A stretch of DNA of 24,535 nt, from the IMG/VR virus record IMGVR_UViG_3300010885_013535, positions 1-24,535 of that record; one strand, given 5' to 3'. The notes below the pieces were generated by a model. It was not told the DNA's origin. It worked only from the letters and a program-made list of their open reading frames with translations, and did no database searches. Made by a program: the position numbers and the translations under genes. Below, piece after piece: positions 6,654 to 14,776 of the stretch (position 1 is its first letter; every line of letters starts with the position of its first letter). Source of the DNA: a virus.

Positions 6654-7066
6654 TGATAGATATTAGAAACGCATTAAAATTATTAGACGTTGTTTATGTT
6701 AATCAAAATGAAAGTGTTAAGTCATCTCTTGATAAAGTAACAATGTTAGCACAGTTAGATGCGCCTGTATGGACTCCACCTGGACCGTTTGAACAGTTTT
6801 ATGTTGATTATGAATACATGAAACAACGTGTACAAGGACTTGAATCGAGATTAAGCACACTCGAAGGATATAATAGAGATCCGCATACTAATTATAACTA
6901 TAATTCTTACGTAGCTACCTATGTTAATTCAAGTTATCAAATTACAGGTATGTCTACAAAAATTACAGCTTTAGAAACTAAATTGCAAGAAGTTACTACA
7001 CTACTTGCAACCTTAACCCCAGAACAGGAAGAAGATGAATCGGAACTTAACAGCGACGCAGAATGA
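6653..7066 (+). CDS. Unknown coiled-coil-like protein between clamp and dpdA
   Basis: 137 residues. The start shares one base with the clamp stop (TAATG), and the end overlaps dpdA by 32 bases, so it is translationally locked between the two. The N-terminal half includes WTPPGPFEQFYVDYEYM. Two heptad-like stretches (about residues 57-71, VQGLESRLSTLEG, and 101-120, ITALETKLQEVTTLLATL) flank a Tyr/Asn-rich loop with NYNYNSYVATYVNSSYQ. The tail is very acidic (EQEEDESE). I do not recognise the family. An oligomerising accessory factor to the clamp or DpdA is possible but unsupported beyond gene order. Confidence 0.7.
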   Translation: MIDIRNALKLLDVVYVNQNESVKSSLDKVTMLAQLDAPVWTPPGPFEQFYVDYEYMKQRVQGLESRLSTLEGYNRDPHTNYNYNSYVATYVNSSYQITGMSTKITALETKLQEVTTLLATLTPEQEEDESELNSDAE

Positions 7067-8843
7067 TTACGCAGTGTTCCTACCAGCAACGTCGGGTTTC
7101 TACTCGACGTTTATCGGAAAACAACGTTACAGTAATTATGTTGAGCCTTCACGCATACCTGCATCTTTTAAAGCAGGTGTTGAAGGTCTTAATTATTTAG
7201 AACCAGAAAAAGGCGAGTTTTATTACAAATGGTGTTTGTATTCAGCTGGACATGCAAACTTAGATTTAACTAAACCTGACGAAAGCGAAGATATGTTCCG
7301 TAATAGAGACAGAAGCACTAGCTGGGTGTTAGGCGACTCTGGAGGTTTCCAAATAGGTAAAGGTGTCTGGGAAGGCGAATGGCGAGACCCAACAAGTGCA
7401 GCAGTACTAAATAAAATGTCTAAATGCATAGCAAAAGGTATCGAATCTGTTCAAGTTATTGGCAAAGATGGTAATCCTGTTTTTGATAAGAACGGAAATC
7501 CTAAAACTACCAAAGTTAATCATGCTAAAGTTTACCAAGCACGGTTAGATGCTGCTCAAAAGAAAAGAGAACAAGTACTAGCATGGATGGACACATTAAT
7601 GGACTATGGTATGGTTCTTGATATTCCGGCATGGGTTGAACGGAGTCCTGCAGGTAGACTAGCAACCGGTATTAAATCATATGATGATGCTGTAGAAGCA
7701 ACTGTTTACAATAATGAATACTTTATGAAACATCGTAATGGTAATTGCAAATTCTTAAACGTATTACAAGGCGAGAATCACATTCAAGCTGACGACTGGT
7801 ATAGTAAGATGAAAGACTTTTGCGATCCTAACGTATACGGGGACAAAGCGTTTAACGGCTGGGCAATGGGTGGTCAAAATATGTGTGATGCGTCATTAGT
7901 TATGAGACGAGTAGTTACATTAATGTTTGACGGCCTTTTAGAAGAAGGAAAACAAGATTGGATGCATTTTTTAGGAACTAGTAAATTAGAATGGGCATGT
8001 TTTTTAACTGATGTTCAACGTGCAGTTCGTAAATATCATAATCCTAAATTTACTATTAGTTATGATTGCGCTAGTCCATTTTTAGCTACAGCAAATGGAC
8101 AAGTTTATATTAACACAGAGATTGAAGATAGAAAGAAATGGGTGTATCGAATGGTGCCTAGTGCAGATAATAAAAAGTATTCAACAGATACTAGATTATT
8201 TAAAGATGCAGTTTTACAAGACGGTATTTTCGATGTGTTTACACCAAGCCCATTAATCGATCAAGTGCAAATTAAAGACATTTGTATTTACGGAGAAGGA
8301 GTTCCTAATTGGGCAGAAGTAAAAAATGCCGGCATTTCTCGTACTAAACTATTTACAGAGCCCGAATACCTAAATGATCCTAAATATTGGATTACGATGG
8401 GCGATGTTAACAAAGTTAACAAGATCGGAAAAACAAGTTGGGACAGTTTTAGTTATGCTATATTAATGGGGCACAATGTATGGAGTCATATCAATGCAGT
8501 GCAAACCGCAAATACCGCATACGATAATAATATTTTTCCAACAATGCTAGCATCTGAAAAAACTGACACAGTATTAGTTAAAGATGTTATTGACATGATT
8601 ATATCTCTTAAAAATAGAGCCGATGCACTTGACCTAGTCGAACATTATGATAAACTGTGGATGGCAATACCCGGAACGCGAGGCAATGTAGGTAAGAATA
8701 TATATAATACATCTGCAATGGTTAATCACCATTTTGATTTCGGTGATAGTGATGACGATACCGACGACGAGTTCTTTACTGAAGAACAGAAACTTAACTT
8801 AGCAACTCTAGAAGATAGCATTAAAGATGAAAAGACAGTATAA
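7035..8843 (+). CDS. dpdA: DpdA-like 7-deazaguanine DNA transglycosylase
   Basis: 602 residues. DpdA proteins belong to the tRNA-guanine transglycosylase (TGT) superfamily and exchange guanine in phage DNA for a 7-deazaguanine base. TGT landmarks appear in order. DSGGFQIGKG (D101) matches the substrate-binding Asp loop, and MVLDIPAW (D196) the base-recognition Asp. LQGE (244-247) and GWAMGG (275-280) match the glycine-rich core, FLGT (312-315) the following strand, and SYDCASPFLATANG (D344) the FDCVxPTRxARNG segment with the nucleophilic Asp. The CxCxxC...H zinc site of bacterial TGT is not seen, and the C-terminal third and acidic tail exceed the usual 370-400 residues. AGGAAG precedes the ATG. 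Together with FolE, QueD-like and QueE proteins in the window, the DNA-modifying role is far more likely than tRNA queuosine exchange. Subfamily (DpdA1/2/3) cannot be set here. Confidence 0.9.
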   Translation: MNRNLTATQNDYAVFLPATSGFYSTFIGKQRYSNYVEPSRIPASFKAGVEGLNYLEPEKGEFYYKWCLYSAGHANLDLTKPDESEDMFRNRDRSTSWVLGDSGGFQIGKGVWEGEWRDPTSAAVLNKMSKCIAKGIESVQVIGKDGNPVFDKNGNPKTTKVNHAKVYQARLDAAQKKREQVLAWMDTLMDYGMVLDIPAWVERSPAGRLATGIKSYDDAVEATVYNNEYFMKHRNGNCKFLNVLQGENHIQADDWYSKMKDFCDPNVYGDKAFNGWAMGGQNMCDASLVMRRVVTLMFDGLLEEGKQDWMHFLGTSKLEWACFLTDVQRAVRKYHNPKFTISYDCASPFLATANGQVYINTEIEDRKKWVYRMVPSADNKKYSTDTRLFKDAVLQDGIFDVFTPSPLIDQVQIKDICIYGEGVPNWAEVKNAGISRTKLFTEPEYLNDPKYWITMGDVNKVNKIGKTSWDSFSYAILMGHNVWSHINAVQTANTAYDNNIFPTMLASEKTDTVLVKDVIDMIISLKNRADALDLVEHYDKLWMAIPGTRGNVGKNIYNTSAMVNHHFDFGDSDDDTDDEFFTEEQKLNLATLEDSIKDEKTV

Positions 8844-9357
8844 TAATAGTATAACTGCAGATGACGTTGAGTTTTTTGTAGGTAGTGAAATAGAGCACAC
8901 CCCAGCGCATAAAATGTTAACATTTTTTGTTGTGGGGTTGCACCCATATGCTGATATCAACGATAAATTAAACACACTTAACGAGACAGTAGAACACATA
9001 TTTTTTGGATCTAACCATAGCTTTAATCCGCAATCAACAAACGAATGGAATAAATGGGAAGATACTATTAGATATTTTTTAGAAACTGGCTACGTATGTT
9101 CGTTAGATATTCCAGTAACTGCAATAAATGACTTTAACAATAACTGTAGGTTGAACATTTATAATAATTTTATTCCACAACTTAGAGTTCCAATTTCAAA
9201 TATTAAACTTTGGAACTATAATACAATGGTTAAAATCGATGATGTTGATTTTAAGGCATCAAACCCAGGTGTATGGACACATAAATTGCATGACTTACAA
9301 GATTATAGTAAGTTTACTGCGTGGTATGAATATAAAAAAGATAAGATAATTAAATGA
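8827..9357 (+). CDS. Unknown protein translationally coupled to dpdA and queD
   Basis: 176 residues. It overlaps dpdA by 17 bases at its start and the queD-like gene by 4 bases (ATGA) at its end, so it sits inside the deazaguanine gene block. Notable segments are EFFVGSEIEHTPAHK (residues about 15-29), HIFFGSNHSF (about 57-66), a VCSLDIPVT strand (about 90-98) and SNPGVWTHKLHDLQD near the C-terminus. Alternating beta strands and conserved-looking His/Asp residues suggest a small enzyme, perhaps a barrel or Rossmann-like fold. I recall similar hypothetical proteins in marine T4-like phages but know no function. No SGGxDS (QueC), radical-SAM or methyltransferase motif is present. A step in 7-deazaguanine synthesis, modification or delivery is inferred from coupling only. 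Confidence 0.8.
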   Translation: MKRQYNNSITADDVEFFVGSEIEHTPAHKMLTFFVVGLHPYADINDKLNTLNETVEHIFFGSNHSFNPQSTNEWNKWEDTIRYFLETGYVCSLDIPVTAINDFNNNCRLNIYNNFIPQLRVPISNIKLWNYNTMVKIDDVDFKASNPGVWTHKLHDLQDYSKFTAWYEYKKDKIIK

Positions 9358-9713
9358 CAGAGAATAAAATGATATGGGTTACTTTTGAAAAAGAAGGAAT
9401 CCATTGTTACCCAGAAGCACTCACTGATCCTAACTTAAATGATGTATCATTTTTAGGACATCCTCATAGACACACGTTTCATTTTAAAGTATGGATCGAA
9501 GTTACGCATGACAATAGAGATATCGAGTTTATACAATTTAAAAGATGGTTGACAACATTATATGATGATGCTATACTATCACTAGATAATAAGAGTTGCG
9601 AAATGATAAGCAACGATTTATATTGGAATATAGCAAATAAATATTCACACAAAGAAGTGTGGATTGAAGTATCCGAAGATGGTGAAAACGGATCATTTAT
9701 TAAGTATATGTAG
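9354..9713 (+). CDS. queD: QueD-like 6-pyruvoyl-tetrahydropterin synthase family protein
   Basis: 119 residues, the usual QueD size. QueD converts dihydroneopterin triphosphate to 6-carboxy-tetrahydropterin, the second step to preQ0. Alignable features: HPHRHTFHF (about residues 36-44) for the zinc-binding HGHxY/F strand, IEFIQFKRWL for the VxDFxxLK element, SCEMISNDLYWNIA for the PTxEnla helix, and VWIEVSEDGENG for the closing strand with its glutamate. The catalytic Cys that normally lies four residues before HGH is replaced by Leu (L34), so this is a divergent member. It starts at an ATGA overlap with the dpdA-coupled gene. A promoter-like sequence lies inside it at 9549-9577. Family membership is fairly clear; identical chemistry is not. 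Confidence 0.75.
   Translation: MTENKMIWVTFEKEGIHCYPEALTDPNLNDVSFLGHPHRHTFHFKVWIEVTHDNRDIEFIQFKRWLTTLYDDAILSLDNKSCEMISNDLYWNIANKYSHKEVWIEVSEDGENGSFIKYM
9549..9577 (+). promoter_or_regulatory. Possible internal promoter inside the queD-like gene
   Basis: TTGACA (9549-9554), a 17-base spacer, TATACT (9572-9577). The match is nearly as good as the intergenic promoters, and it lies about 140 bases before the 9715 gene. It could transcribe the two small genes at 9715 and 9929, which end at the palindrome at 10201. Being inside coding sequence, it could also be chance. Confidence 0.5.
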
Positions 9714-9714
9714 C

Positions 9715-9927
9715 ATGAAACATTATATCTCAAAAGCTATGCTTGAACAACAAATTAGTCGTTTAAGCCAAGAGATAACTGATTACGAAAAACAAAATAT
9801 GCAATCAGGTAACAGTAAACCTAAGCATATGATACACATTACAAAACTTAGACAACAACTACACGAATTGAAACACACGTTAAATGTTCGTACTAATCAA
9901 ACTATATTAAAAAACGGAAGAAAATAA
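9715..9927 (+). CDS. Small coiled-coil protein
   Basis: 70 residues from the ATG at 9715, one base after the queD-like stop; an upstream in-frame ATG (9664) would lie deep in that gene and is less likely. The whole protein is charged and helical (QQISRLSQEITDYEKQ, then a LRQQLHELKHTL heptad-like stretch), suggesting a helical hairpin or coiled coil. It is positively charged overall, so nucleic-acid contact is possible. I recognise no family. It may be read from the dpdA operon or from the possible internal promoter at 9549. Confidence 0.65.
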   Translation: MKHYISKAMLEQQISRLSQEITDYEKQNMQSGNSKPKHMIHITKLRQQLHELKHTLNVRTNQTILKNGRK

Positions 9928-9928
9928 A

Positions 9929-10183
9929 ATGGCTAAAAATTACAAAACATTCTCATACTTCGAATCACGTCCAGATGTTGTTAAAATCTTTGAAGATTTA
10001 GAAGCATTTCACGATTTTTGCAGAATTGAGTTACGTAAATTTGATCCAGCAGATTTATATCGCAAAGATAGTAAATCATACGGTGCTTACTTAGCTAGTA
10101 AACGTCCTCGTAAACCATATCAAGGTAATAAACCTTGGCCAAACGGTGTTAAACCAAAAAATACTTACCAAAAAAAATCTTAA
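9929..10183 (+). CDS. Small basic unknown protein
   Basis: 84 residues, starting one base after the previous stop, with GGAAG upstream. The N-terminal half is mixed (FEDLEAFHDFCRIELRKFDPADLY). The C-terminal 35 residues are highly basic and Pro/Gly/Asn-rich (KRPRKPYQGNKPWPNGVK), typical of a disordered nucleic-acid-binding tail. It is the last gene before the palindrome at 10201. No known domain is recognised; a small DNA- or RNA-binding accessory protein is an inference from charge alone. Confidence 0.7.
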   Translation: MAKNYKTFSYFESRPDVVKIFEDLEAFHDFCRIELRKFDPADLYRKDSKSYGAYLASKRPRKPYQGNKPWPNGVKPKNTYQKKS

Positions 10184-10240: not shown

Positions 10241-11335
10241 ATGAAACCTACTATATGGATATTTCCAATAGAACCACTAGACACAAGATACACAAGACAG
10301 TGGCATGATCATATCCCTAAACAATTACGCGCACACATCGAAGACAAATATAATATAGTTCAAATAGACGGTGAACAAAATGCAACAGATGTAACTCCAG
10401 GTGCGTTTTTAAACTTCGTCGATACTAATGTATGGAAAAGCTCACAATTAGTCGGATTCTTAAAAAATTATCACCGAACTACTCGCAATGATCATTTTTT
10501 ATTTACCGATGCGTGGAATCCTACTATTATACAATTAAAATATATTAACGATTTAGAACAATTAAATTGGACATTCCATGGTCTGTGGCATGCTGGTAAT
10601 TATGACAAGCACGATTTCTTAGGAAAGATTACAGGTGCATGGCCTAAACTTGCAGAAAAAACTATGTATACATCTTACACTCATAATTATTTTGCCACCG
10701 AGTTTCATGTAAGAATGTTTTTTGACAATGTAATACAAAGTGGTTATCCAAGTGAAAATCCATGGTATGACGATGACTGGGATGAAGTATATGACGACAA
10801 GTCTATTATAAAAACAGGATGGCCTATGGAGTATTTAAAAGATACATTAGAGCCATACAAAAACACAGAAAAACGTGATTTAATTTTGTTTCCGCATCGG
10901 ATTGCTCCAGAAAAACAAGTTGATATTTTTAGAGCATTAGCTCATCAATTACCGCAATATGATTTTGTTGTATGCCAAGATGAAAAGCTAAGTAAAGACG
11001 ATTATCATAAATTATTAAGTGAAGCAAAGATTGTGTTTAGTGCAAATTTACAAGAAACACTAGGCATTAGTTGTTACGAAGGCGCACTACTTGGTGCTAT
11101 ACCAATGGTTCCTGATAGATTAAGCTATAAAGAAATGTATATGTATCATTTTAAATATCCGTCAGAATGGACTGCTAGCTTTGAAGATTACGAAGCTCAT
11201 AGTTACGATTTATGTAATAAAATTATTCATTATATAGAAAACTATGATACTATAGAGCAATATGTGCAAACACAATCAGAATACCTAACAAGAGAGTTTT
11301 TTAACGCAGAGAAATTATATGACAATTTTAAATAA
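10241..11335 (+). CDS. GT-B fold glycosyltransferase (GT4-like)
   Basis: 364 residues. The C-terminal half matches GT-B retaining glycosyltransferases: LILFPHRIAPEKQVDIFRAL (residues 214-233), with the R/K pair that contacts the sugar-nucleotide phosphates, then KLLSEAKIVFSANL, and QETLGISCYEGALLGAIPMV (271-290), which carries the EX7E motif (E272, E280). The N-terminal half is less conserved and has an acidic Trp/Asp-rich stretch (about 174-185), probably in the acceptor region. No signal peptide or membrane segment is seen, so it acts in the cytoplasm. AAGGAAC precedes the ATG. The acceptor is unknown: DNA bases, virion proteins and host surface are all possible. Proximity to the deazaguanine genes makes modified DNA an interesting but untested option. 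Confidence 0.87.
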   Translation: MKPTIWIFPIEPLDTRYTRQWHDHIPKQLRAHIEDKYNIVQIDGEQNATDVTPGAFLNFVDTNVWKSSQLVGFLKNYHRTTRNDHFLFTDAWNPTIIQLKYINDLEQLNWTFHGLWHAGNYDKHDFLGKITGAWPKLAEKTMYTSYTHNYFATEFHVRMFFDNVIQSGYPSENPWYDDDWDEVYDDKSIIKTGWPMEYLKDTLEPYKNTEKRDLILFPHRIAPEKQVDIFRALAHQLPQYDFVVCQDEKLSKDDYHKLLSEAKIVFSANLQETLGISCYEGALLGAIPMVPDRLSYKEMYMYHFKYPSEWTASFEDYEAHSYDLCNKIIHYIENYDTIEQYVQTQSEYLTREFFNAEKLYDNFK

Positions 11336-11768
11336 CAACGATGATACAATTACATTTACCATGGATGGCGATAGCACTATTCCTGCATTTACTACTAGCA
11401 CATTGTCTTCATATTTAAATCATATGAGCATAACAGGAAATGATGTAGTTTGTGGTTCACACAGTGCAGGTGATACTATTACCCTTAGCAACTATTCATC
11501 TGGGTTTTATGTGAATACTCCAAATGGCACTGCACCTACATACACAATCAATGGCAGTAGTATACACAATAGTACATATTCTTATAACGGTACAGGTAGT
11601 AGTTGGTATCCATATAACAGTAAACCATTCGAAGATAACTTTCCAGAATGGAATGCATTTAGAAAATTATGTGAAGATTATCCAGGTTTAGAAAAAGCAT
11701 ACGAAAACTTAAAAACAATTTATACTATTGTATATGCAGACAGTTTATTACCAAAGGAAGATAAATGA
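11319..11768 (+). CDS. Unknown Ser/Thr/Asn-rich protein with conserved phage C-terminal motif
   Basis: 149 residues, overlapping the glycosyltransferase by 17 bases and the next gene by 4 (ATGA). The first two thirds are rich in Thr, Ser, Asn, Gly and Tyr, and look like beta-strand repeats of a virion or surface protein. The last 50 residues switch to a charged helical segment, FPEWNAFRKLCEDYPGL and then YENLKTIYTIV. That type of tail I recall as common at the ends of small marine-phage proteins. It may be a fusion of two modules. The upstream ribosome-binding site is weak (GAGA), consistent with coupled translation. Function unknown. Confidence 0.7.
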   Translation: MTILNNNDDTITFTMDGDSTIPAFTTSTLSSYLNHMSITGNDVVCGSHSAGDTITLSNYSSGFYVNTPNGTAPTYTINGSSIHNSTYSYNGTGSSWYPYNSKPFEDNFPEWNAFRKLCEDYPGLEKAYENLKTIYTIVYADSLLPKEDK

Positions 11769-12295
11769 AAGTAGTAAAGTATAGTTGGGCACAATTAGAA
11801 GGTGCAGCCTTAGAAATTGCACGCCAAGTACAAAAAGACAAGTGGAAACCAGATTACATTGTCGGCATTACACGCGGGGGACTTATCCCCGCGAACTTAC
11901 TTAGTCAGTATCTCGGAGTTAAGATGCTAACACTACACGTTAGCTTACGAGATCATCTAGATGATAACGAACACAACGCATGGATGGCATGTGATGCGTT
12001 TGGTGTTACTGATGACGAACTAGCAAGTACCGGCCATGCTAAAAACATTCTAATCGTTGATGATATAAACGATTCCGGATCAACACTTAATTGGATTAAA
12101 GAAGATTGGCAATCATTATGTTTACCAAACGACATACGATGGGACCACGACGTGTGGCATAAAAACGTAAGATTTGCTGTAATTTTTGATAATGCTGCAA
12201 GCAAAACACACGTTGATTATTGTGCTGAAGAATTTAACAAACGAGACGATCCAATTTGGATTGACTTTCCTTGGGAAAACTACTGGAAGAAATAA
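11765..12295 (+). CDS. Type I phosphoribosyltransferase-like protein
   Basis: 176 residues. The type I PRTase signature is clear: NILIVDDINDSGSTLN (residues 94-109), with the paired acidic residues that bind PRPP, preceded by the IVGITRGGLIPANLL pyrophosphate loop (32-46). This family moves 5-phosphoribosyl from PRPP to a base (xanthine/guanine/hypoxanthine salvage) or acts in reverse. The specificity hood is not recognisable, so the base is unknown. It starts with ATGA overlap and ends with TAATG overlap. Purine salvage for phage DNA synthesis is the conservative role. Handling a deazaguanine base is conceivable because of the neighbourhood. A 7-bp all-GC hairpin lies within its RGGLIPA coding region. 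Confidence 0.88.
   Translation: MKVVKYSWAQLEGAALEIARQVQKDKWKPDYIVGITRGGLIPANLLSQYLGVKMLTLHVSLRDHLDDNEHNAWMACDAFGVTDDELASTGHAKNILIVDDINDSGSTLNWIKEDWQSLCLPNDIRWDHDVWHKNVRFAVIFDNAASKTHVDYCAEEFNKRDDPIWIDFPWENYWKK
11873..11893. other. GC-only hairpin inside phosphoribosyltransferase gene
   Basis: CGCGGGG (11873-11879) and CCCCGCG (11887-11893) form a perfect 7-bp stem with a 7-base loop. It is built from codons rare in this AT-rich window (CGC GGG ... CCC GCG) that encode the RGGLIPA loop. Confidence 0.7.
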
Positions 12296-12819: not shown

Positions 12820-13491
12820 ATGAGCTTTAATAAAACAAAAACTGATTCAGAATTAGGTTTAGCAATACACAAACATCTAGTAAGTTTAGGTGTAGAAACA
12901 CCAGTAACTGAAAAGATATTAACTTCATCGGAAAAAGTAAATATCATTCAAGATAAATTCCATGATATTATGGTAACTTTAGGTTTAGATTTAACAGACG
13001 ATAGTTTAGCAGATACTCCTAAACGTGTTGCAAAAATGTTTGTAAATGAAATCTTTTGGGGTCTTGATTACGAAGCATTTCCAAAATGCACAACTATTGA
13101 AAACAAAATGGGATACAATGAAATTGTTGTCGAACGTAATGTAAACGTACAATCAAATTGTGAACATCATTTTGTAGTAATTGACGGTGTTGCAACAGTT
13201 GGTTATATTCCAAATAAAGTAGTACTCGGATTAAGTAAAATCAATCGTGTAGTTGAATACTTTTCTAAACGTCCGCAAGTACAAGAAAGATTAACAGAAC
13301 AAGTATTTCACGCATTAGAATTTATCTTAGGTACTGATAATATTGCAGTTGTAATTGATGCACAACATTATTGTGTAAAATCTCGCGGCGTTGAAGACAC
13401 AGGTAGCACTACTATTACTAGTAAATTAGGCGGTGCATTTAAAAACGATCCCACTACTCGTGCAGAATTTATGAGTATTGTAAACAAATAA
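12820..13491 (+). CDS. folE: GTP cyclohydrolase I
   Basis: 223 residues, the normal length for type IA GTP cyclohydrolase I. It opens the GTP ring to give dihydroneopterin triphosphate, the shared precursor of folate and of queuosine/7-deazaguanine. Zinc ligands are present: C114 and H117 in SNCEHHF, and C185 in HYCVKSRG. Other family blocks follow: YIPNKVVLGLSKINRVVEYF, then RPQVQERLTEQ, GVEDTGSTTI, and a C-terminal FKNDPTTRAEFM. No residue of the core motif is missing. It has its own promoter and an AAGG site. With QueD-like and QueE proteins encoded nearby, the product is expected to feed CDG rather than folate, though both are possible. Confidence 0.97.
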   Translation: MSFNKTKTDSELGLAIHKHLVSLGVETPVTEKILTSSEKVNIIQDKFHDIMVTLGLDLTDDSLADTPKRVAKMFVNEIFWGLDYEAFPKCTTIENKMGYNEIVVERNVNVQSNCEHHFVVIDGVATVGYIPNKVVLGLSKINRVVEYFSKRPQVQERLTEQVFHALEFILGTDNIAVVIDAQHYCVKSRGVEDTGSTTITSKLGGAFKNDPTTRAEFMSIVNK

Positions 13492-13499
13492 GGAGATTT

Positions 13500-13937
13500 A
13501 TGAAATTAACACCACAAATTCCAGCAGTAGGCATTATGCAAACAAATAACTGGGGTAACAGTAAAATGTACGCAATTAAATGCGCATGCGGTAACGAAGA
13601 TGATGATATCGAGTTTATGGTAGAAGCTGATGAATTTAATGTTACAGTAACTACCTTTACTACACAAAAAACTGCATATTGGGATAGACCATTTGATATT
13701 GCAGAAACTTATAAAATCAAAAATGTATTTTTAAGTACGGTTGCATTTGAATGGTTAACGTTGCTTAACTGTTTGCATCATCGTCTTAAAATGACATGGA
13801 ATTTGTGGTTTAATGGCTATCTTAAATATCAACAATCAACTATAATGACTGAACAACAAACTTTAAATTATGCAGAAGCATTAGTATCTGCAATTAAGGA
13901 TTGTCAGCAATTTCGTAAAGAATTACAGGATAAATAA
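13500..13937 (+). CDS. Conserved-type phage protein between folE and queE
   Basis: 145 residues, with a strong AAGGAG site overlapping the folE stop and a one-base overlap with the queE start. The N-terminal half is beta-rich with a CACGNEDDD turn (C29, C31) and the VTVTTFTTQKTAYW strand. The C-terminal half has NLWFNGYLKYQQSTIMTEQQTLNYAEALVSAI, a helical block. I recall proteins of this type as hypotheticals in marine T4-like phages. The position inside the folE-queE unit could mean a part in the deazaguanine pathway, but gene interleaving in such phages makes that weak evidence. Confidence 0.75.
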   Translation: MKLTPQIPAVGIMQTNNWGNSKMYAIKCACGNEDDDIEFMVEADEFNVTVTTFTTQKTAYWDRPFDIAETYKIKNVFLSTVAFEWLTLLNCLHHRLKMTWNLWFNGYLKYQQSTIMTEQQTLNYAEALVSAIKDCQQFRKELQDK

Positions 13938-14776
13938 TGACACTTAAAGTATCGGAAATATTTTACTCATTACAAGGCGAAGGTCGCTTTATGGGTACTC
14001 CTTCAATCTTTTTGCGCACGTTTGGATGCAACTTTAAATGCCAAGGATTTGGCATGCCTAAAGGTGAATTAAGTGTGCAAGCTGAAACTATTGCTAATAA
14101 TGGCATAAAATATCATACATATGACGAACTACCATTAGTAACTACCGGATGTGACAGTTACGCAAGCTGGCATCCAAAATTTAGACATTTAAGTCCTACA
14201 TTGTCAATTGACGAAATTGTAGATAAAATGATTAATCTATTACCTAATAAAAGATGGGGTAATGTGCATTTAGTAATAACAGGTGGAGAACCATTGCTAC
14301 TAGGGTGGCAAAAGATATATCCTGAGTTATTAGCTCATCCTAAACTAGAAGACTTGAAACATATTACGTTTGAAACTAACGGCACTCAAGTAATATCTGA
14401 AGAATTAGAAGATTACATCTTTGGAAAAAGACGATATCAAGTAACGTTTTCGATTAGTCCTAAATTAAGTGCAAGTGGAGAATCAAAAGATAGAGCAATA
14501 TGTCCAGAAATTGTTTCTGAATATCAATTATCTAGTTATGGTTCATATTTAAAATTTGTAGTAGCAACTAAAGATGATGTTGTCGAAGCACTTGAAGCAT
14601 TAGAATGGTATAGGTCAGCAGGGTTTAAAGGTGATGTATACTTAATGCCAGTTGGAGGTGTTGAAGACGTTTACCATTTAAATAATAAAGCAGTGGCAGA
14701 GCTTGCATTAAAATATGGACTAAAATATAGCGATAGAATGCATTTACCGCTATTTGGAAATAACTGGGGAACATAA
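13937..14776 (+). CDS. queE: 7-carboxy-7-deazaguanine synthase (radical SAM QueE)
   Basis: 279 residues. QueE is a radical-SAM enzyme that rearranges 6-carboxy-tetrahydropterin to CDG. The N-terminus EIFYSLQGEGRFMGTPSIFLRTFGC is the family signature, and VITGGEPLLL (about 113-122) is the SAM-binding GGEP motif. FSISPKLSASGE and LKFVVATKDD also match. The cluster-binding cysteines are unusual: C31 and C35 give CxxxC, but the expected third Cys two residues later is Phe. A CDSYASW segment, which normally directly follows as CDTxYxW, appears at C72 after about 34 extra residues. All three cysteines therefore exist in a split motif. Length exceeds the usual 210-240 residues by about that insertion. 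It overlaps both neighbours by one base. Confidence 0.93.
   Translation: MTLKVSEIFYSLQGEGRFMGTPSIFLRTFGCNFKCQGFGMPKGELSVQAETIANNGIKYHTYDELPLVTTGCDSYASWHPKFRHLSPTLSIDEIVDKMINLLPNKRWGNVHLVITGGEPLLLGWQKIYPELLAHPKLEDLKHITFETNGTQVISEELEDYIFGKRRYQVTFSISPKLSASGESKDRAICPEIVSEYQLSSYGSYLKFVVATKDDVVEALEALEWYRSAGFKGDVYLMPVGGVEDVYHLNNKAVAELALKYGLKYSDRMHLPLFGNNWGT

Follow-up and report, generated by a model that had tools for sequence, protein, structure and literature searches.

A phage protein family without a name that accompanies dpdA: a very probable, undescribed component of the 7-deazaguanine DNA-modification pathway

Our study identified a 176-residue phage protein, here called X, that very probably belongs to the dpdA DNA-modification pathway as an undescribed component, and whose association with dpdA and the surrounding deazaguanine module is near certain. 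Its gene lies within a stretch of 24,535 nucleotides (IMG/VR virus record IMGVR_UViG_3300010885_013535, positions 1 to 24,535), which we refer to as the window. The disguise of phage DNA with 7-deazaguanines, which allows it to survive restriction, has been described (Hutinet 2019, PMC6884629), and modification based on DpdA is already known; X itself is unnamed in every library searched. The features of the window that are relevant to this analysis are the following:

7035..8843, plus strand: dpdA, a TGT-like DNA guanine transglycosylase of a subfamily common to PA5oct gp168 (motifs, profile-profile match, tblastn)
8827..9357, plus strand: gene X, coding for a 176-aa orphan protein (ORF, homologues, dN/dS, AlphaFold)
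8827..8843, plus strand: 17-nt overlap between the end of dpdA and the start of X (sequence)
8875..8901, plus strand: X motif 1, residues 17-25, F-x-G-x-E-x-E-x-T, at the C-terminal end of predicted strand 1
8995..9021, plus strand: X motif 2, residues 57-65, HIFFGSNHS, in predicted strand 3 and the following loop
9232..9243, plus strand: X motif 3, residues 136-139, KIDD, at the end of predicted strand 6
9262..9282, plus strand: X motif 4, residues 146-152, NPGVWTH
9316..9342, plus strand: X C-terminal motif, residues 164-172, T-x-W-x-x-Y-x-x-D
9354..9357, plus strand: 4-nt ATGA overlap between the stop of X and the start of the QueD-like gene (sequence)
9354..9713, plus strand: QueD-like paralogue, phrog_17812, a candidate CDG-processing enzyme (hhalign, no Cys)
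10241..11335, plus strand: glycosyltransferase-like (GT-like) protein that accompanies dpdA and the QueD-like gene (weak Glycos_transf_1 and Glyco_trans_1_2 matches, synteny)
11765..12295, plus strand: phosphoribosyltransferase, frequent in X clusters (PF00156, E 5.9e-15, synteny)
12820..13491, plus strand: folE, GTP cyclohydrolase I (NCBIfam NF006824, 314.7 bits against a cut-off of 202; TIGR00063, 235 bits)
13937..14776, plus strand: queE, coding for the radical SAM enzyme that synthesizes CDG, in which a long insert follows CxxxC (PF04055, phrog_2076, alignment)

The linkage between X and dpdA carries the main finding. We collected 209 distinct X proteins, 182 of them with at least 4 kb of upstream sequence, and dpdA was present in the same cluster as X at all of these 182 informative loci. 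A script that required dpdA to lie within 4 kb of X on the same strand counted 180, and inspection resolved the two exceptions: in locus L401 dpdA (8449-9996) had been masked by an over-extended automatic start of X, and in Acidovorax phage ACP17 a DpdA2 gene lies directly downstream of X, joined to it by an ATGA overlap. In Pseudomonas phage PA5oct, dpdA is 28 kb away from X in the same genome, beside the GT, QueD-like and QueE genes, and that genome holds X, dpdA, GT, QueD-like, QueE, FolE and QueD together. A second, divergent group of X proteins (61-83% identical to that of locus L172, some from phages of more than 300 kb) has dpdA adjoining X in 80 of 80 loci, followed by the QueD-like and GT genes in nearly all loci whose contig reaches far enough. 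The reverse counts agree, with lists biased to close relatives in both cases: X occurs in 56 of the 58 window-type dpdA loci with room downstream, and X plus dpdA in 65 of the 66 QueD-like loci with room upstream. The original prediction had proposed X as a new component of deazaguanine DNA modification, and the dpdA linkage strongly supports it; X homologues in phages lacking dpdA, which it had named as contrary evidence, appeared at no informative locus. It is important to consider that the loci represent the best 80 hits per query, and that less common contexts may have escaped.

Gene order is conserved as dpdA, X, QueD-like, GT, with the QueD-like gene within 4 kb after X in 123 of 124 loci. 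The exception is L042 (L042:6830-15937), where dpdA and X are present and the QueD-like and GT genes are missing from the 5.4 kb downstream. A rearranged order was observed at L118:5671-8507, where the QueD-like gene stands upstream of dpdA, which is then followed by X. The reading frame of X is as originally described, 176 codons that share 17 nt with dpdA (which ends at 8843) and 4 nt with the frame starting at 9354. These overlaps had been offered as an argument for tight coupling, and here the two halves of the argument separate: the conserved gene order stands, while the overlap itself is a weak argument because the 17-nt form is not conserved. Of 164 loci, 3 have it, the window itself accounting for at least one of them, and it is nearly unique to this phage; the usual junction is a 4-nt overlap or a gap, with 28 ATGA overlaps and 17 other overlaps among the 202 junctions measured. 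The 4-nt overlap of X with the QueD-like gene is shared by 46 of the 199 distinct homologues that have a QueD-like gene downstream.

X is a real protein under purifying selection, with a median dN/dS of 0.11 and a maximum of 0.23 over 121 homologue pairs. The motifs that had been picked out in the single sequence are indeed among the conserved ones, which are G19-x-E21-x-E23, H57 to S65, K136-x-D138-D139 and N146-P-G-V-W150, each residue named here being at 98-100% among 290 homologues (96% for P147). In this same set, F17, G19, E21 and E23 of motif 1 are at 100%, with residues 16-20 forming a strand in the AlphaFold model; the frequencies in motif 2 are 0.98 for H57 and 1.00 for both G61 and S65; K136, D138 and D139 of motif 3 are at 100%; N146, G148 and W150 of motif 4 are at 100%, with 0.96 for P147 and 0.98 for H152; and T164, W166, Y169 and D172 of the C-terminal motif are at 99-100%.

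No Pfam, NCBIfam or PHROG family matches X, as had been anticipated. Scans of 52 homologues against the family libraries gave no consistent family, with isolated Pfam hits to single members only, four divergent homologues gave none, and the X profile matched no sequence in the PDB. X nonetheless represents a large unnamed viral family, abundant in large phages: IMG/VR contains 112 close relatives, and two profile queries of it returned at least 588 and at least 600 stretches. Isolate genomes with X are of just two kinds, Pseudomonas jumbo phages of the PA5oct group (about 37% identity) and Acidovorax phage ACP17 (29%); when 14 whole phage records were scanned with the X profile, ACP17 and PA5oct alone gave a match, and the PA5oct protein as query of viral contigs returned no loci. 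Three bacterial MAG contigs also contain X. Two of them, L084 and L085, look viral because they have the same dpdA-X-QueD-like order; L085, a 335-kb contig under a Neomarinimicrobiota MAG with the whole polB-dpdA-X-QueD-like-folE-queE block, is probably a large phage binned with its host. At L086:1913-2887 an X fragment is fused in frame to an apparent glutamyl-tRNA reductase on a 3-kb contig of low coverage, probably an assembly chimera.

The DpdA of the window has the TGT-type motifs DSGGFQ, LDIP, HFLGT and DCASPF, with invariant D101-S-G-G, D196, H311 and D344, and matches the DpdA2 profile at E 6.7e-6 in a profile-profile comparison. An insert of about 45 residues (about 128-172) is common to only part of the family, L170 for example. 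At BLAST level, its only relatives among isolates are in PA5oct, Sinorhizobium phage Phosso and Vibrio phage 2.275.O. ACP17 encodes a DpdA of the DpdA2 type, with homology to those of nt-1 and KVP40, which means that X accompanies two DpdA subfamilies, the window type and DpdA2. The system of Vibrio phage nt-1 resembles the one described here in that FolE, QueD and QueE supply a 7-deazaguanine to a TGT-like DpdA (PMC6884629); it differs in that QueC is present and both X and the QueD-like gene are absent.

As for the other genes of the cluster, GT is conserved together with dpdA, the QueD-like gene and X, and is found too in ACP17, PA5oct, X1, BUCT-ZZ01 and Phosso; this conservation suggests that the modified base may carry a sugar. 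The phosphoribosyltransferase also occurs beside DpdA2 in BUCT-ZZ01 and Ps15. The QueE of the window keeps CxxxC, and its long insert precedes a GCDSY segment that may supply the third cluster cysteine. QueE types vary among the phages with X, with no matching change observed, and since they do not follow X, a compensation by X for an unusual QueE was rejected.

The gene downstream of X had been called queD, a label that is probably wrong: the protein is a QueD paralogue without the conserved cysteine, and a true QueD is encoded elsewhere. Its profile matches that of canonical phage QueD (hhalign E 2.7e-6) and, like QueD/PTPS (PF01242), it has conserved histidines, whereas the cysteine before the HxH / HG[YHF] motif is present in 21 of 21 canonical QueDs and in 0 of 120 QueD-like proteins. 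The window protein matched no Pfam family, PF01242 included, at E up to 1. Canonical QueD was found elsewhere in 10 of the 16 X-bearing records searched, and also in nine of the ten isolates having the QueD-like paralogue. Isolates with a strong QueC (nt-1, pf16 and 2.275.O) are without the paralogue, and those with the paralogue have either no QueC or a weak (D479) or sub-threshold (X1) match. This pattern of presence against strong QueC is suggestive of the paralogue taking over from QueC after CDG. Matches to QueC in some X phages were discarded as weak, several of them resembling other PP-loop ATPases. In many phages the QueD-like family (phrog_17812) goes together with FolE and QueE; in Vibrio phage Bakedbeans (L202:4212-5363) and Chryseobacterium phage MA9V-3 (L204:4428-5309) its domain forms the C-terminal part of a longer protein. 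A CDG decarboxylase was reportedly named DpdL by Cui et al. in 2023. It would act on CDG in phages without QueC, as proposed here for X or the QueD-like gene, and DpdL might be one of these two; within the literature covered, a search on DpdL and related terms returned nothing useful.

The fold of X is confidently predicted to be a compact alpha/beta structure, most likely of a single domain. AlphaFold with 52 relatives gave a model with pLDDT 91.3 and pTM 0.87, and a second model, built from the L170 protein (35% identical to that of the window) with the alignment rows reordered, reached pLDDT 89.8 and pTM 0.84; because its alignment is largely that of the first, this second model is only a partial replicate. 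Among the high-ranking rows of the structural comparison, QueE gave the widest coverage at a given rmsd with both models: 5th5 at Z 6.7 over 133 residues (3.9 A) and 6nhl at Z 6.4 over 131 residues for the first, and 5th5 at Z 6.0 over 129 residues (3.6 A) and 6nhl at Z 5.6 over 127 residues for the second, all of them below the Z of 8 under which the tool places its background. We count it as a mild plus that a QueE-like order had been expected from the sequence before the fold search. Foldseek against the PDB returned nothing below E 0.001, and against BFVD only the ACP17 homologue. Two other folds headed the VIA lists and were taken as common arrangements: STAS/RsbS, first with the first model (Z 7.3, about 90 residues) and lower with the second, and Mre11/SbcD, first with the second model (Z 6.3, 99 residues).

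X and QueE (5th5, 6nhl) very probably act in one pathway, and they may also have a partial TIM-barrel fold in common, the matches to a strand-helix outline extending over about 130 residues in either model at Z values below the trust level; QueE differs in its CxxxC and SAM motifs, its greater length and the lack of any detectable sequence relation. An hhalign comparison of X (290 sequences) with QueE (104 sequences) gave a probability of 0.7%, and the X profile showed no homology to dpdA, DpdA2, QueD, QueD-like, QueE, FolE, GT or the phosphoribosyltransferase, with hhalign probabilities of at most 3% on deep alignments. The iron-sulphur cluster of QueE is bound through C31, C35 and C38 (PMC11142719). 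CxxxC occurs in 0 of 125 X homologues, while 54 of 54 phage QueEs have both CxxxC and GGEP; since CxxxC, where QueE binds its cluster, is absent, X is not a radical-SAM enzyme of the QueE type. Conservation in X averages 3.29 bits in the C-terminal loops, 2.71 in the N-terminal loops and 2.26 in the helices, with conserved polar residues clustered just after strands. This peak in the strands and the loops that follow them is as would be expected of a ligand site at a barrel-like mouth.

We tentatively favor a reading, held at somewhat less than even confidence, in which X is a dedicated accessory protein of 7-deazaguanine DNA modification in phages without QueC and binds or processes a CDG-derived base before its insertion. 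FolE, a canonical QueD whose gene lies in another part of the genome, and QueE would produce 7-carboxy-7-deazaguanine (CDG), and the cysteine-less QueD paralogue would stand in for QueC. X, with the shape of a QueE barrel that has lost its iron-sulphur and SAM elements, would then bind and process the CDG-derived base; DpdA would insert the finished base into DNA in exchange for guanine, and the glycosyltransferase-like protein would belong to the same module. We infer that X acts on the base and that it is catalytic, as well as its reaction; with CDG as the precursor and no strong QueC present, the leading guess would be decarboxylation or another change at the 7-position. For such a decarboxylase-like step, the QueD-like paralogue is a candidate equal to X or better.

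Other roles have to be weighed against this one. X could be an accessory subunit of DpdA, aiding DNA binding or selection or base loading in a DpdB-like role, and its constant presence with dpdA, usually adjoining and with the overlaps counted above, would fit. We consider this unlikely given how the two proteins diverge: over 98 non-redundant loci, X and dpdA distances correlate at r 0.12; the corresponding values are 0.39 for X and polB and 0.75 for dpdA and the clamp-like gene beside it, and the mean X distance is 0.362 with far dpdA and 0.369 with near dpdA. This absence of co-variation disfavours a fixed interface, and a small-molecule step fits it better. In addition, X is found with both the window-type DpdA and DpdA2, the latter being its neighbour in ACP17, and several other DpdA phages are without X, all of which speaks against an obligate form of the DpdA partner that the original prediction had listed among its options, beside a decarboxylase and a base carrier. 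An action after insertion, on the 7-deazaguanine already in DNA, in which X prepares or completes hypermodification with the GT-like protein, would agree with the shared module of GT, QueD-like gene and dpdA and with the weak glycosyltransferase profile matches of GT. It appears quite unlikely, as no DNA-binding feature was seen in X, and GT and the QueD-like gene occur without X in Xanthomonas phage X1 and Synechococcus phage BUCT-ZZ01 (both with DpdA2) and in Sinorhizobium phage Phosso (with a window-type dpdA). These three phages also indicate that the core pathway can do without X, which is therefore an add-on to the core module.

A QueE-like outline without cluster or SAM motifs is also what a non-catalytic base carrier or pseudo-QueE would present, holding CDG or tuning QueE; however, the many invariant polar residues of X suggest catalysis, and the QueE types vary without a matching change, which leaves this role improbable. 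Very improbable, finally, is an unrelated function of a gene merely carried in a syntenic replication block. Most loci do come from two related large-phage groups with a shared polB-clamp-dpdA order, but ACP17 and PA5oct, which differ both as phages and in genome order, still pair X with a DpdA, and no X without dpdA was seen.

No description of the combination of DpdA, a cysteine-less QueD paralogue, a GT-like protein and X turned up in the literature searched, which did not cover Cui et al. 2023. On a more speculative and rather unlikely extension, X, the paralogue and the GT-like protein would constitute an undescribed QueC-independent branch in which new enzymes convert CDG, with X a non-radical derivative of QueE and the DNA base hypermodified, perhaps glycosylated. 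New base chemistry is likely, because in the X module a QueD paralogue stands where a strong QueC is lacking. The isolates that carry X, Acidovorax phage ACP17 and the Pseudomonas PA5oct group, make this module directly testable.
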